Source of the DNA: Methanoregulaceae archaeon
GTDB taxonomy: Archaea > Halobacteriota > Methanomicrobia > Methanomicrobiales > Methanospirillaceae
Length of the DNA stretch: 64,000 nt
Reading direction: 5' to 3'
Assembly (NCBI GenBank): GCA_021371995.1
Contig: JAJFVA010000011.1
Location: 1-64,000 of the forward strand
In this document: piece by piece, positions 30,010 to 35,583 of the stretch
Layout: each line of letters opens with the position of its first letter
Position numbering within the stretch: position 1 is the first letter of the stretch
Program-made: the position numbers and the translations under genes
The notes under the pieces: generated by a model
Database searches by the model: none
Told to the model about the DNA's origin: nothing
What the model saw: only the letters and a program-made list of their open reading frames with translations

Positions 30010-30786
30010 TTAAAGGGCCCTGATCAGGGAGTCTCTGGTAACCAGGCCCGCAAGACTTTCTCCCTGCACAACCGGAACTGAACTGATTTTCTTTGCAGTC
30101 ATAAGGTTAATCACCTCATCAACGGTCGAACCGGCACGTACCGAGAGTACCGGTTTGCTCATGATATCCTTGACAAGGAGGTTCCTGATCCGGTGGTCCT
30201 GATGCTTGTCATCGACGACCTCGCGGAAGTTCCGCATGGCAACCGCCACATCAGTCTCGGTGACTATTCCGACGACCCTGTCCTGGTCAGTGACGATGAA
30301 CCTGAGGATATTGTCATCTATCATCCTCCTTCGTAAATGGACCACCCTCTCTTCGGTGTCAATGGTGCATGCCTCTTCCATTACCTCCTCGAGGGCGGCA
30401 TTCGGCCGGTATACTTTGAGCAGATCCTCTGCAGTTACCTTCCCGATAAGCCGGTGGTCCTCGTCATACACAACAACAAGCTTGTATGCCTGGAGGAGCG
30501 GGATCAGGATCTCGACGTCCTGATCAGGGTAGACCGTGGTAAAATCCTCCTCGACCGTGTTTGCCACATGGATTGAGTTCGGCGAGATGGATGAATTCCG
30601 CTTGGTCCCCAGTTTCTCAGCGACACTCTTCCGTGATACGGTCCCGACAACAGAATTGTTATTCATCACTATAAGCGGGTCAATGCCCTCATTCAGCATT
30701 TTATCGAGCGCCTCGGTAATCACCGCAGATTTTGCGATGATAACCGGACGTGACATGATATCCTTGACAAAGAGTTCTTCGGTCAT
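30010..30786 (-). CDS. Four-CBS-domain protein (cluster member 5)
   Basis: 258-residue protein made almost only of two Bateman pairs (four CBS modules), beginning FVKDIMSRPVIIAKSAVITE; later repeats start with the DFTTVYPDQDVEILIPLL, CTIDTEERVVHLRRRM and VKDIMSKPVLSVRAGSTV blocks. CBS pairs bind adenine nucleotides, S-adenosylmethionine or similar ligands and act as energy or metabolite sensors. No effector domain, membrane segment or enzyme is attached. Overlaps cluster member 4 by 4 nt and ends at a T-rich run. The partner it regulates is unknown. Confidence 0.88.
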   Translation of the reverse strand: MTEELFVKDIMSRPVIIAKSAVITEALDKMLNEGIDPLIVMNNNSVVGTVSRKSVAEKLGTKRNSSISPNSIHVANTVEEDFTTVYPDQDVEILIPLLQAYKLVVVYDEDHRLIGKVTAEDLLKVYRPNAALEEVMEEACTIDTEERVVHLRRRMIDDNILRFIVTDQDRVVGIVTETDVAVAMRNFREVVDDKHQDHRIRNLLVKDIMSKPVLSVRAGSTVDEVINLMTAKKISSVPVVQGESLAGLVTRDSLIRAL

Positions 30787-31622
30787 TGTGCAACTTCCCT
30801 GATAATATCGTCTCTCTTGATAATTCCCCTTATTACCTGATCTTCAACAACAATAAGGCTGTTTATGCCCTGCTCCCGCATGACTGCGACCGCCTCCCGG
30901 ACAGATGCACCGGGAGCTACCGTCACCACAGGCCGTGACATCAGATCTTCTGCAACAACCGCCGTCTCATAGACATACCGCAGCACCTTTTTCCCTCCCG
31001 GCTGCTCCTTCCGGAGCCTGGTGATATCTTTTACCGGGAGTTCCGCCTTTTCATTGGAATAAAGGAAAAATGCCAGGTTGCTTTCGGTGACGACTCCGGC
31101 GAGAGTGCCGTCGTTATTCACCACCACCACTTTGTCGTTTCTCTCCCTCATGAGGTTGATCACATGATCAAGAGAATGGTAACGGCTCACGGTGATGACA
31201 TCTTCCATAACATCCTCCACCCGTATCGATAAAGATCCGATACGTTCGGACTTCATCAGGTCGGATTTTGTAACAATCCCCGCCATCTCGCAGGAATCCA
31301 CGACCGGGACCCCTGAAATATCGCATTCAATCATAAGTGAGGCGACCTGGCCAATGCTGGTATCACTGGTCACTGTCACCGGATCCGGTGTCATGAGGAC
31401 TGACACAGGGATACTGTCGATAGGCCTCCTGCGCCAGAGGGGTTCGCTCTGGCGGAGACGATAACCGATATCTTTCTTGGTGATGATACCGGAAAGAACG
31501 GACTTTTCCATGACAGGGAGACGGGATATCTTGTGCTTCAGCATAAGGTTGCGGGCCCGTGCAACATTTTCCCCTGTATCAACGATATAGACAGGGGAGC
31601 TCATCACATCACGTGCTTTCAT
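30783..31622 (-). CDS. Four-CBS-domain protein (cluster member 4)
   Basis: 279 residues, four CBS modules in two pairs. The first opens ARDVMSSPVYIVDTGENVAR; others open SVLMTPDPVTVTSDTSIGQV, VEDVMEDVITVSRYHSLDHV and AEDLMSRPVVTVAPGASV. Between the second and third pairs is a short linker with IRVEDVM; a basic KEQPGGKKV segment precedes the last module. Typical CBS GIVTKxD turns (GIITKKDIG, GIVTKSDLM, GVVTESNLA) are intact, so all sites could bind ligand. Overlaps member 5 by 4 nt and follows member 3 by 7 nt. Confidence 0.88.
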   Translation of the reverse strand: MKARDVMSSPVYIVDTGENVARARNLMLKHKISRLPVMEKSVLSGIITKKDIGYRLRQSEPLWRRRPIDSIPVSVLMTPDPVTVTSDTSIGQVASLMIECDISGVPVVDSCEMAGIVTKSDLMKSERIGSLSIRVEDVMEDVITVSRYHSLDHVINLMRERNDKVVVVNNDGTLAGVVTESNLAFFLYSNEKAELPVKDITRLRKEQPGGKKVLRYVYETAVVAEDLMSRPVVTVAPGASVREAVAVMREQGINSLIVVEDQVIRGIIKRDDIIREVAQ

Positions 31623-31629
31623 TTCAGGC

Positions 31630-32571
31630 TCACTTCCTTGAGAGTGCTTTTACCATGTCAAACTCGGTCACAAGGCCGACAAGCCGGGCATTCTCGATTA
31701 CCGGGAGGGCCCCGACATTCCGGTCGAGCATCTCCCTGGCAGCATCATTGATGCTCCTTTCGGGCGAAGTCGTAAAGAGTTTTCCCGATACGAGGTTTCG
31801 CACGGCAAGCCCCATAACTTCGGCAACGTCCCCTGTTTCCAGTTGCGAAAAGACCTTTTTTGTCCCGAGGTATTTCATGATGTCTGTTGTCGTAATAATC
31901 CCATACAGGACCTCGTTACTCACGACCGGGAGTCTCCGGAACCGGTGAGTCGTCATGTCCCGGGTGACCGTCCGGATAGGGCAGTCAGGATCGGTAACCC
32001 TGAGCGCAGTGCTCATGATGTCATTGACACAAAGGTCGGATCTCTCGGTTGCGAGCACCCTCATCACGTCCCGCTCTGTCACAATACCTCCCAGAACACC
32101 ATCGTTATCTACGATCGGCATCCCCCCGACTTTCCTTTTGACGATGATATCAATCGCATCATTGATGGTCGCGGAATCAGGGAGCGTGGTCATCTGCTGA
32201 GTCATGATACTGCGAACCCCCTCATTAATCGCTGAAAGGAGATTCCCGCCGTGCTTTACCTGGACAAGATTAAACTTATCGCCGCCCCCCATGAAATTGA
32301 TAATATCTCCCGACGTTATAATTCCCCGGAGCTTCCTGCTCCCCGCATCTACGATGGGAAGTCTCCGGAACCCGCAATCGGTCATAGTCTTCACAGCAGC
32401 GATGATCGGCATTGTCGGGGGAACTGCTACAACGTCCCGCGTCGCAATGGCCATGATCTCTCCTTCCCGGGTTACGATGTGTGACTTGAATTCGACCGGA
32501 CCCCGGTCGAGTTTTCCCGGCATTTTCAGGAGTTTGTCGCCCTGTTTGAAATTACGGTCATTTGTATGCAT
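31630..32571 (-). CDS. Four-CBS-domain protein (cluster member 3)
   Basis: 313 residues: a basic, unstructured N-terminal region of about 35 residues (NDRNFKQGDKLLKMPGKLDR) followed by four CBS modules, with turns GIITSGDII, GIVTERDVM, GIITTTDIM and GLVTEFDMV. ATG 32571 is preferred over the ATG 15 codons upstream because a GAGGGATGAT ribosome-binding site lies just before it. The 88-nt gap to member 2 is the largest in the cluster and could hold a second promoter. Confidence 0.87.
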   Translation of the reverse strand: MHTNDRNFKQGDKLLKMPGKLDRGPVEFKSHIVTREGEIMAIATRDVVAVPPTMPIIAAVKTMTDCGFRRLPIVDAGSRKLRGIITSGDIINFMGGGDKFNLVQVKHGGNLLSAINEGVRSIMTQQMTTLPDSATINDAIDIIVKRKVGGMPIVDNDGVLGGIVTERDVMRVLATERSDLCVNDIMSTALRVTDPDCPIRTVTRDMTTHRFRRLPVVSNEVLYGIITTTDIMKYLGTKKVFSQLETGDVAEVMGLAVRNLVSGKLFTTSPERSINDAAREMLDRNVGALPVIENARLVGLVTEFDMVKALSRK

Positions 32572-32659
32572 ATCATCCCTCTTTTCATGGTTGGTATTTT
32601 GAAAGAAGCGATTCATTCACCACATTGCGCAGGTATCAACCCTTTCTGGCGCTCCATTC

Positions 32660-33403
32660 TCATACAAGGCATTTCAGGATATCGTGCCGGTCGATGATCC
32701 CGATGATCTGATCATTCTCCATGACCGGGAGCCGGCTTATGTCATGCTTTACCATAATATCAGCAGCGGTCCGGACGTCATCACCCGGTCCGGTGGTTAC
32801 AACCGGGGTCGTCATGAGAGTATCAACGGTTGTAGAGGTTTCGGATGAGGCGCGCCACCGCCCGTCTTTCAGGAGATCGCGGCGGGAGATCATTCCCACG
32901 ACTTTCTTTTTCTTTGTTACCGGAAATGCAGAGTACCCGCTGTCAATGATGAGCGTATGGATCCGCTGGATGGTGTCTTCTGCTGCACAGGTGACCACAT
33001 CGCTGGTCATGGAATCGCACACAGAACCGTGGAGCCGCTGCATTGTGATAACAACAGGGAAGAGTTCCGATAAGAGTACCCCCCCCAGCAGGACTCCCTG
33101 ATCATCCACCACAGGTACACTGTCAGTCTTGTTCTTTCGGATGGTTGCGAGTACTTGCCCGATAAAATCGCCAGGCAAAACCGGGGTTATATCCTTCAGG
33201 AATCCATCAATGGTGACGTCAGATTTCGTGGCTGTTATGCGGAGGACATCGGTGATATCGATATACCCGAGAAGCTTTCGCTTCCCGTCATGCACATAGA
33301 CCTCACGGTAGACGTTTTCCCGAAGAATCTGGCGCGCCTTTGTTATCCGATCATCTGACCTGAGTGCCGGAAATTCGACCAGAAAATCTGCCGCTGTTTT
33401 CAT
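32660..33403 (-). CDS. Four-CBS-domain protein (cluster member 2)
   Basis: 247 residues with four CBS-like modules. The first two are more divergent (starting FLVEFPALRSDDRITKARQI with turn GYIDITDVL, then LKDITPVLPGDFIGQVLATI), while the last two keep classical turns GMISRRDLL and GIIDRHDIL. It overlaps member 1 by 4 nt (ATGA), so the two are translated together. No other domain is visible. Confidence 0.85.
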   Translation of the reverse strand: MKTAADFLVEFPALRSDDRITKARQILRENVYREVYVHDGKRKLLGYIDITDVLRITATKSDVTIDGFLKDITPVLPGDFIGQVLATIRKNKTDSVPVVDDQGVLLGGVLLSELFPVVITMQRLHGSVCDSMTSDVVTCAAEDTIQRIHTLIIDSGYSAFPVTKKKKVVGMISRRDLLKDGRWRASSETSTTVDTLMTTPVVTTGPGDDVRTAADIMVKHDISRLPVMENDQIIGIIDRHDILKCLV

Positions 33404-33966
33404 TGAAGGAGTTCCTCTTCACGGCATGACGTGCAGAGCATCACATTATCAGTACGGCGGAGATCGTCAGACATCTGTCCGCACCGGCTGCAGACTCCGA
33501 CTTCAACTTCTTCGAGCCGGTTGATCTCGATCAGATCATTCATGAGCTCGTTGATCTCGGTTGAGACCGTCAGGATATCCCGGACGGTTACGATCCCGAT
33601 AACCCTGTTCTCGTTATCGACTACAGGCAGTCTGCGAACACGGTTCCTGATCATCATGTGGGCAGCATCGCGCACGGTCTTGTCAGAATGGACCGTAATC
33701 AGGGGAGTGCTCATCACTTCGTTTACCAGTACTGCGCCCGGCTTTTTATCCTTGGCAACCACCTTGCAGTTGATATCTTCTTCGGTCACTATACCGATAG
33801 GGAGGTTGTTGCGGATCACAATGCAGCTCCCCACCTCATCACGGCACATTGCCATGGCTGCCCGTGCTACCGACGCGTCGGACTGAATAGTGGTAGGGTT
33901 TCCCTTCATCACCTCTTTCAGCTGCACCCGCGTTTCAAACCGGATCGAGTCTGAGGATTTTTTCAA
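33400..33966 (-). CDS. Two-CBS-domain protein with C-terminal zinc ribbon (cluster member 1)
   Basis: 188-residue first gene of the cluster. Two CBS modules (LKEVMKGNPTTIQSDASV..., turn GIVTEEDIN; VNEVMSTPLITVHSDKTV..., turn GIVTVRDIL) are followed by a zinc ribbon, CSRCGQMSD ... MLCTSCREE (two C-x2-C pairs about 20 residues apart). The ribbon could bind nucleic acid or a protein, so this may be the output member for ligand sensing. The start must be TTG 33966: the ATG nearby is in a frame that stops after 11 codons, and an upstream stop closes this frame; GGGGGTGA precedes it. Confidence 0.87.
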   Translation of the reverse strand: MKKSSDSIRFETRVQLKEVMKGNPTTIQSDASVARAAMAMCRDEVGSCIVIRNNLPIGIVTEEDINCKVVAKDKKPGAVLVNEVMSTPLITVHSDKTVRDAAHMMIRNRVRRLPVVDNENRVIGIVTVRDILTVSTEINELMNDLIEINRLEEVEVGVCSRCGQMSDDLRRTDNVMLCTSCREEELLQ

Positions 33967-34002
33967 TCATTCACCCCCAATTAGGCGTCCCTTACAGAAC
34001 TG

Positions 34003-34025
34003 GGATACGCAGTATCCATTACTGC
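34003..34025 (-). promoter_or_regulatory. Overlapping alternative hairpins in the CBS-cluster leader
   Basis: In the predicted 5' leader, GCAGTA-ATGGA-TACTGC (34025-34009) and GGATAC-TGC-GTATCC (34017-34003) are both perfect 6-bp stems that share TAC (34012-34014), so only one can form at a time. This may be an attenuator-like switch or overlapping operator half sites. Confidence 0.45.
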
Positions 34026-34050
34026 GAGCCATCAATATTAACTAATCGAT

Positions 34051-34063
34051 GGGTATAAAATTT
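34051..34063 (-). promoter_or_regulatory. TATA box of the CBS gene cluster
   Basis: AAATTTTATACCC on the minus strand, preceded by a purine-rich GGTGAAGG BRE-like stretch, is one of the strongest promoter matches in the window. It predicts a start near 34030 and a 64-nt leader before the TTG of member 1. Confidence 0.6.
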
Positions 34064-34150
34064 CCTTCACCAGAGTGTCCGGAAACCAGTACAAAAACCA
34101 TAATAATGACTTTATTCCATAAGGTACATGATAAGGACCTGGCCATCAGG

Positions 34151-34158
34151 ATATAAAT
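34151..34158 (+). promoter_or_regulatory. TATA box of the GTPase operon
   Basis: ATATAAAT is centred 33 bp before the GTPase ATG and predicts a start near 34181. A GAGGTGAT ribosome-binding site lies at 34179-34186. Confidence 0.55.
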
Positions 34159-34187
34159 CCGGATCAATTGCCGCTTTGAGGTGATGT

Positions 34188-34829
34188 ATGAGTATTTTTG
34201 TACAGGCCAAAAACCGTGTCTCGAAATTTCTTATGGCTTTTTTCAAAAAAAGGCGTTCCCGTATCGGAATTTACGGTCCCCCGAATGCTGGCAAGACAAC
34301 ACTCGCAAATCGAATTGCCCGCGACTGGACGGGTGAACTGGTAGGTCCGGTAAGTGAGATTCCGCACGAAACCCGCAGGGCGACACGCAAGCAGGACATC
34401 ACCATTACCGGCAACAACGGGAGCACCATCACTATCGATATTGTTGACACCCCCGGGGTGACCACCAAGATCGATTATAAGGAGTTTCTCGAGTATGGCG
34501 TGGGAAAGGACGAGGCAATCACGAGGGCACGCGAAGCGACCGAGGGAGTTGCCGAAGCGATGCACTGGCTCCGCGAAGACATTGACGGGGTTATCTACAT
34601 GCTCGACAGTACGGAGGATCCTTTCATGCAGGTGAATATCATGATGGTTGGGATTATCGAGAGCAGAAAACTCCCTGTGATTATCGCGGCAAATAAAATT
34701 GATCTCCCTGATGCAAGCCCGCAGAGGATTAAAAGCGCCTTTCCCCAGCACCCGGTAATCTCGATCTCCTGCACGGAAGGGAGCAATATCGAGGAGCTGT
34801 ATGAACAGATGGTATTACATTTCGGGTGA
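34188..34829 (+). CDS. Era-like small GTPase, ArvA/OapA-type
   Basis: 213-residue small GTPase with an N-terminal amphipathic basic stretch (VSKFLMAFFKKRRSR) likely to touch the membrane. G motifs: G1 YGPPNAGKTTLA (about 29-40), G3 DIVDTPGVT, G4 AANKIDLP, G5-like SISCTEGSN; G2 lies in the ETRRATR segment. In other euryarchaea this gene family, next to DUF2073 and a zinc ribbon gene, is the vesicle-forming GTPase set (ArvA with ArvB, ArvC), a recent assignment from Haloferax. Here the three genes are in the same order with 6- and 4-nt gaps. Role in vesicles of this methanogen is inference. Confidence 0.88.
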   Translation: MSIFVQAKNRVSKFLMAFFKKRRSRIGIYGPPNAGKTTLANRIARDWTGELVGPVSEIPHETRRATRKQDITITGNNGSTITIDIVDTPGVTTKIDYKEFLEYGVGKDEAITRAREATEGVAEAMHWLREDIDGVIYMLDSTEDPFMQVNIMMVGIIESRKLPVIIAANKIDLPDASPQRIKSAFPQHPVISISCTEGSNIEELYEQMVLHFG

Positions 34830-34835
34830 GGGATC

Positions 34836-35201
34836 ATGACGCAGGGTGTCCAGATAGATCTTATCTCCGAAGAACGGCTTGCTAAGCTGACGTCAATGGA
34901 GAAGATACACATGATTCTCGATGATGTCAGGCAGGGAACGATCGTAATCCTCGAAAAAGGGCTCGACCCTGAGGAGCAGGGAAAACTGATCGAGATGACT
35001 ATGCACGAGATCCTTCCTGACGGGTTTAACGGAATCGAGATCGAGACATACCCCTCTCATGAAGAAGCCCCGGGATTCTTACAAAGGCTCCTTGGAAAAA
35101 CCAGGCCTGAATCACGCCTTACAGTTATCGGCCCGGCAAACCAGTTGCGGATGATCAGGAAAGACAAGGACATGATCAGTGCCTGGGTCTCCTCCCGGTG
35201 A
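34836..35201 (+). CDS. DUF2073 protein, ArvB/OapB-type
   Basis: 121-residue conserved archaeal protein, DUF2073. It has no known catalytic motif; the recognisable core is KIHMILDDVRQGTIVILEKG, LTPEEQGKLI-like DPEEQGKLIEMTMHEI and a C-terminal RLTVIGPANQLRMIRKDKDM. It lies between the GTPase and zinc-ribbon genes in a tight operon and is the probable GTPase partner in the Arv set. Confidence 0.85.
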   Translation: MTQGVQIDLISEERLAKLTSMEKIHMILDDVRQGTIVILEKGLDPEEQGKLIEMTMHEILPDGFNGIEIETYPSHEEAPGFLQRLLGKTRPESRLTVIGPANQLRMIRKDKDMISAWVSSR

Positions 35202-35205
35202 AGGT

Positions 35206-35583
35206 ATGGTGCATACCTGCGCAAAATGCGGGAAAGTATACCCGGATTCCTCTGCCGAGATTCTGAACGGCTGTTCGCAATGTGGAGGAAAAAAATTTTA
35301 CTTTGAGCGACCGGGCGCCCGGAAAAAAAAGTCCCCTGATGCAGAGCAACGCCCGGCGGCACCTGCACCTCCACCTGCTCCTGAAAAAGAAGAAGCGGCG
35401 GAAGAGGACCGGGGCTCGAGGGTTGAGAGTATCCGGATTGTCGCTCCCGGGACATACGAACTCAATATCGAGAAGATGGCCAGGTCCGATGACCGGGTTG
35501 TCGGCCTCGGAGGGGAGGGCAGCTATGCTGTTGATCTTCTCTCCATGGCTGGAGCAAAAAAGAAGAAAAAGTCCGAGCGGTAG
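35206..35583 (+). CDS. Zinc-ribbon protein, ArvC/OapC-type (DUF2072)
   Basis: 125 residues. N-terminal zinc ribbon VHTCAKCGKVY ... GCSQCGGKKFYF (two C-x2-C pairs), a Pro/Ala/Glu-rich flexible linker (about 40-75), then a conserved C-terminal piece beginning ESIRIVAPGTYELNIEKMA and ending in a lysine run. ATG 35206 is preferred because it begins right at the ribbon; a start nine codons upstream overlaps DUF2073. Third gene of the GTPase operon. Confidence 0.85.
   Translation: MVHTCAKCGKVYPDSSAEILNGCSQCGGKKFYFERPGARKKKSPDAEQRPAAPAPPPAPEKEEAAEEDRGSRVESIRIVAPGTYELNIEKMARSDDRVVGLGGEGSYAVDLLSMAGAKKKKKSER

Follow-up and report, generated by a model that had tools for sequence, protein, structure and literature searches.

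The window analyzed here, a 64,000-nt stretch of DNA from a Methanoregulaceae archaeon (contig JAJFVA010000011.1), carries on its + strand three genes in fixed order: arvA (34188-34829), encoding a small single-domain GTPase of 213 aa; arvB (34836-35201), encoding an OapB/DUF2073 protein of 121 aa; and arvC (35206-35583), whose start we read as the ATG at 35206 and which encodes a 125-aa zinc-ribbon OapC/DUF2072 protein with the pattern CxxC-x(n)-CxxC and a conserved C-terminal motif. An earlier note on this DNA had described the arrangement and its gaps of 6 nt between arvA and arvB and 4 nt between arvB and arvC, which we confirm; gaps of 3-10 nt occur in nearly all loci of family f1. Membership in the Arv families, also proposed there, was borne out by profile searches: ArvB matches PF09846 (OapB; 153 bits, E 2e-45) and ArvC matches PF09845 (OapC; 107 bits, E 8e-31), both well over the Pfam cut-offs of 27 and 23 bits, respectively, and both profiles also exceed their cut-offs in the control genome, that of Haloferax volcanii. 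The window belongs to a 1.85-Mb genome with an assembly completeness of 98.6%, whose closest named relatives are uncultured Methanoregulaceae and Methanolinea-labeled MAGs of the order Methanomicrobiales.

ArvA has a complete set of G motifs (G1 GPPNAGKT, G3 DTPG, G4 NKID), matches general GTPase models and, in a genome-wide search, is the sole such GTPase in its own genome at E <= 1e-5. It shares 60-62% identity with the OapB-linked GTPase found in a Haloferax-like genus, a comparison protein that is not HVO_3014 itself. The earlier description of ArvA as Era-like holds for its fold, since Era is among the matches of its AlphaFold2 model, but Arl3, Arl1, EngB and MnmE match equally well, and the description fails for family membership. 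The NCBIfam equivalog models for Era and Der give only 40-46 bits against cut-offs of 116-307 (in the Era test, 46 bits vs 237 and 40.5 vs 116), and the protein stops at the end of the G domain, with no KH domain. A test for the Arf/Arl family failed as well: residue 2 is a serine, so that the myristoylation glycine is missing, and PF00025 covers residues 130-180 only. The N-terminal stretch had been called basic and amphipathic; basic it is (net charge +8), yet 59% of same-residue shuffles do at least as well as its maximal hydrophobic moment of 0.50. A helix spanning residues 3-19 is predicted with low confidence (pLDDT ~53); membrane association of ArvA is plausible.

In the ArvB model (pLDDT 78) strands alternate with helices, and a fold search against the PDB gave no significant match (best E 0.04), with weak matches that include Alba, IF3-C and SepF (6sat; probability 0.75, E 0.14). 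The SepF likeness reported for ArvB by Mills et al. (PMC10927574) is compatible with the model but not significant here. A direct test of ArvB for SepF failed, the profile search giving PF09846 only, and every genome checked has a separate single SepF gene, with or without ArvB.

By sequence, the window genes are methanogen orthologs of the haloarchaeal arvABC (oapABC) operon, and the operon itself is ordinary. As the family was already described across archaea (Mills et al. 2024; PMC10927574), the window adds a further member to it. That survey listed 1,666 ArvA homologs over 14 archaeal phyla, with ArvB present in 95% of ArvA-bearing genomes (directly downstream in 93%) and ArvC in 91% (PMC10927574). 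In our own phylum sample ArvB occurs in 364 of 393 genomes, and the absences listed are mostly from genera g5 and g12 and from family f7; the truncated ArvB of one genome, G027, stops at a contig edge. The order of the genes is far from chance, since arvB lies directly 3' of arvA in 54 of the 55 ArvA-bearing genomes of the window's family outside Methanoregula. ArvA and ArvC co-occur perfectly in the 46 genomes tested (both present in 39, both absent in 7), and ArvA is under strong purifying selection (dN/dS 0.03-0.05). Seven genomes lack A, B and C together, six of them from f7 and one from f10. Two individual cases deserve mention: in G062 (family f8; loci L031 and L057) ArvC lies ~1.7 Mb away from arvAB, and the MAG of locus L208 (JAKLGZ010000037), labeled Methanoregula sp. 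RA.bin51 at NCBI, groups not with Methanoregula but with the genus of the window (97% ArvA identity).

Immediately upstream of arvA, in the opposite orientation, is a five-gene array encoding CBS-domain proteins (30010-33966, - strand). Its first gene, CBS5 (33400-33966), encodes two CBS domains and a C-terminal zinc ribbon. Next come CBS4 (32660-33403), a CBS-module protein whose nearest solved chain is 9znf_4 (109 bits), from an archaeal ribosome entry, and three proteins with four CBS domains each: CBS3 (31630-32616; nearest solved chain 9znf_5, 231 bits), CBS2 (30783-31622; 9zni_6, 204 bits) and CBS1 (30010-30786; 9zni_7 and 9zng_7, 157 bits). Entries 9znf, 9zng and 9zni also hold ribosomal protein uS11 and are therefore ribosome structures. 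Standalone CBS-module proteins were described in 2026 as probable hibernation factors of archaea; they are present in dormant ribosomes of M. acetivorans, and their genes are often clustered (PMC13324472); a text search of that paper found no mention of the arvABC GTPase. With CBS1-CBS4 nearest to the CBS chains of archaeal ribosome structures, we assign the array as a ribosome-hibernation cluster whose products would bind dormant ribosomes. CBS5, which adjoins arvA, starts at a TTG behind a GGGGTGA ribosome-binding site and ends in a CxxC...CxxC zinc ribbon; it is a candidate regulator of the divergent unit.

The pairing of the two gene sets is widespread. A divergent CBS gene is found upstream in 116/116 Methanomicrobiales loci. 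Of the 81 loci flanked on each side by 3.5 kb or more, 80 retain this gene but only 28 retain any of the three genes neighboring the operon downstream in the window. Divergent arrays in the order CBS5-4-3-2-1 stand beside arvABC in families f11, f14, f15, f19 and f31, and partial arrays in f7, f16 and f20. The link is nonetheless not obligatory. Five f7 genomes have CBS3 without arvABC, the array is unlinked to arvABC in f8 and f22 (in f9 an incomplete array is unlinked), and searches for CBS3 in two arvABC-bearing haloarchaeal genomes gave no match; we thus reject strict co-inheritance of arvABC and the CBS array. In two of the seven genomes that lack A, B and C, G061 and G070, the contig continues beyond the CBS array without arvABC, so an assembly gap is not the cause. 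At one f7 locus devoid of arvABC (L315:6180-6878), a gene with HEAT/PBS-like repeats lies beside the CBS array at the point where arvA would start, possibly by coincidence, and L319 contains ORFs of similar length; a HEAT-PBS protein was listed in haloarchaeal vesicles by Mills et al. (PMC10927574). In the literature searched, we found no earlier report of arvABC lying back to back with hibernation genes.

The two units share an intergenic region (33967-34187), to which the earlier note had assigned one TATA box. When compared over eight genomes of the window's genus, the nearest such motif, TATAAAT at 34152-34158, is not conserved, and the genus-conserved TATA-box candidate for arvABC is instead TATAAAAT (34054-34061, + strand). 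The region also contains a 17-bp inverted repeat, GCAGTATCCATTACTGC (34009-34025), which is the sole perfect copy in the genome and is conserved in four or five related genera: it is kept at -157 to -184 in g1, g8, g9 (most members) and g11, and partly in g16. It was not found in Methanoregula or outside Methanolinea-like genera. GCAGTATCCATTACTGC is probably an operator for one or both directions. We also considered a wider regulon defined by this operator and rejected it, with a single perfect site in the genome and 7 one-mismatch sites vs 5 for a reversed-pattern control.

One genus departs from the canonical operon. Methanoregula, here GTDB genera g5 and g12, belongs to the window's own family, in which ArvA is found in 98 of 108 genomes and ArvB scores over cut-off in 54. 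None of the 43 ArvA-bearing g5/g12 genomes has ArvB, vs 54/55 in the other genera, and in g5/g12 arvC directly follows arvA at a distance of 4-28 nt. Loci that have deleted arvB while keeping ArvA and ArvC include L060, L061, L070, L157-L162, L212, L229, L244 and L251, the last four labeled "Methanoregula sp." at NCBI, titles from which g5 and g12 take the name used here. Two of the genomes concerned, G015 and G036, we take to be M. boonei 6A8 and M. formicica SMSP. In a tree of ArvA and ArvC from which the N-terminus was left out, the 30 ArvB-less rows form one clade (SH-aLRT 99) with one state change, and we conclude from these sequences that arvB was precisely deleted in Methanoregula by a single loss.

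Other accounts of the missing gene were tried and rejected. Several of the genomes are complete single contigs, which together with the 4-28 nt A-C junction excludes an assembly gap. A moved or diverged ArvB is also excluded: profile searches to E = 1 give chance-level matches of 11-16 bits, which are seen in ArvB-bearing genomes too. An extra SepF has not taken its place, SepF being single-copy everywhere checked, and several independent losses are discarded because the tree requires one change. One Methanoregula MAG (G451, contigs C40 and C52; loci L223 and L247) apparently has two ArvA copies and may be a strain mixture.

The remaining pair is well preserved. Median dN/dS in the ArvB-less clade is 0.048 for ArvA and 0.095 for ArvC, indicating strong purifying selection; DTPG and NK[IVT]D are intact in 29/29 proteins and the G1 pattern in 28/29. 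Methanoregula thus keeps ArvA without ArvB, which argues that the conserved function of ArvA does not require ArvB; we read ArvA and ArvC as a core pair from which ArvB is separable. The N-terminal stretch of ArvA is altered in this clade: four residues are added in all 29 proteins whose start is clear (the sole exception to the insertion, L064, has a start shifted in the gene call), giving 30 residues before GIYGP vs at most 26 elsewhere, and the mean net charge rises to +10.1 vs +8.3. As the longer helix and the loss of ArvB trace to one evolutionary event, their co-occurrence is only suggestive. An earlier report of this loss was not found in the literature searched. A naturally arvB-less genus with cultured species offers a direct test of ArvB as an activating exchange factor of ArvA.

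In H. volcanii, deleting arvA or arvB lowers vesicle numbers about 3-fold, whereas arvA overexpression raises them 3.5-fold and arvC deletion 1.65-fold; ArvA is enriched in the vesicles, and the arvA mutant grows a little faster, with fewer rod-shaped cells (PMC10927574). Mills et al. proposed that ArvB is a possible exchange factor and ArvC a possible GTPase-activating protein (PMC10927574). By extrapolation from these genetics, the window operon would be vesicle-forming, as the earlier note had suggested, with ArvB activating and ArvC inhibiting; searches of the literature found no vesicle data for any Methanomicrobiales. We consider it fairly probable that the orthologous arvABC operon encodes a membrane-budding GTPase, ArvA, together with an obligate partner and probable negative regulator, ArvC, and an accessory protein, ArvB. 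ArvA, as a small GTPase of the Ras/Era/Arf type, would bind the cytoplasmic membrane in its GTP state through the basic N-terminal helix, and insertion of this helix into the inner membrane face may then induce membrane curvature and budding. The zinc-ribbon protein ArvC would limit budding, and ArvB would probably recruit or activate ArvA while being dispensable, perhaps where ArvA has a longer helix. Expression of arvABC in methanogenic Halobacteriota would probably be co-regulated with the divergent CBS hibernation genes in stress or stationary phase.

Several observations speak against a role in vesicle formation. The family is near-universal in the phylum and is selected very strongly, beyond what would be expected of a dispensable vesicle function; Methanoregula retains ArvA without ArvB; the H. 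volcanii arvA mutant shows the changes in growth and rod number given above; and the amphipathicity of the ArvA N-terminus does not rise above shuffles, its helix being modeled with low confidence. The first two of these, along with the reduced number of rods in the H. volcanii mutant, would fit a system serving mainly the envelope, cell shape or surface, for instance by delivering or removing lipids or S-layer components, with vesicles as a by-product and not the main output in methanogens. Thermococcus and Sulfolobus, moreover, produce vesicles without ArvA (PMC10927574), and M. smithii, which lacks the GTPase, produces vesicles thought to arise through blebbing (PMC12134362), so that a vesicle role of ArvA is not to be assumed for methanogens in general. 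We nevertheless judge an envelope function rather unlikely, since in H. volcanii overexpression alone lifts the number of vesicles and ArvA is enriched in them (PMC10927574). A role in ribosome biogenesis, with ArvA as an Era-type GTPase and ArvB and ArvC as two RNA-related helpers, could draw on the fold matches of ArvA to Era and of ArvB to Alba and IF3-C as well as SepF, on the ArvC zinc ribbon and on the adjoining hibernation genes. The Era and Der scores far under cut-off, the missing KH domain, the non-significant ArvB matches and the H. volcanii genetics, which indicate vesicles, make it quite improbable. Lower still do we rate a function associated with the replication origin, after the Pfam names of proteins that were called origin-associated because their genes lie close to an origin in H. 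volcanii: the two Orc1/Cdc6 genes lie on contigs C32 and C37 and the operon on the 95-kb contig C31, and Mills et al. point out that no role in replication has emerged for OapA (PMC10927574), leaving this explanation highly improbable.

A stronger competitor, which we regard as possible but doubtful, is that the GTPase works with the divergent CBS proteins, for instance in disposing of rRNA or membrane at dormancy entry, so that vesiculation and ribosome inactivation form one program. The constancy of the CBS gene beside Methanomicrobiales loci whose downstream neighbors are far less often kept, the same orientation and order in five families, the likeness of CBS1-CBS4 to ribosome-bound chains and the clustered proteins of dormant M. 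acetivorans ribosomes all favor it, as do the rRNA and tRNA that Mills et al. report in H. volcanii vesicles (PMC10927574). The arrays without arvABC, the unlinked arrays and the two haloarchaeal genomes with arvABC and no CBS3 match weigh on the other side. Returning to ArvA as a membrane-budding GTPase, the conserved back-to-back layout suggests a tie between vesicle release and dormancy entry in methanogens. We tentatively extend this to a composite and speculative proposal: that arvABC and the CBS cluster may form a single divergent unit of ancient origin, under joint regulation in methanogenic Halobacteriota, with vesiculation and ribosome dormancy as arms of one stress program, and that ArvB may be a removable adaptor, lost in Methanoregula as the ArvA membrane helix grew by one turn, which left ArvA-ArvC as the core machine.

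Among known systems, bacterial Era and Der and eukaryotic Arf and Arl have the G-domain fold in common with ArvA, the best structural matches being Era, Arl3 and Arl1; ArvA differs from them in having neither a KH domain nor Gly2 and in scoring far under the Era and Der cut-offs. SepF resembles ArvB as a weak fold match, as do the Alba and IF3-C folds. The CBS-module (CM-1/2/4/5) hibernation cluster (PMC13324472) is close to CBS1-CBS4 of the window, which are nearest to chains of 9znf, 9zng and 9zni and are clustered likewise, but its description does not mention the GTPase operon alongside, and CBS5 of the window combines two CBS domains with a zinc ribbon. Haloarchaeal ArvABC/OapABC (HVO_3014, HVO_3013 and HVO_3012; PMC10927574) consists of the same three families in the same order with short gaps and shares with the window operon all GTPase motifs, the Pfam families OapB and OapC and a basic or predicted helical ArvA N-terminus. 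The two differ in ArvC, which has 125 aa and a brief linker in the window, whereas haloarchaeal frames run to ~220-390 residues with a long insert between the zinc ribbon and the C-terminal motif, and in the ArvA N-terminus, strongly basic in the window (+8) and neutral in the Haloferax-like genus. The divergent CBS array upstream of arvABC likewise sets the window apart from haloarchaeal ArvABC.
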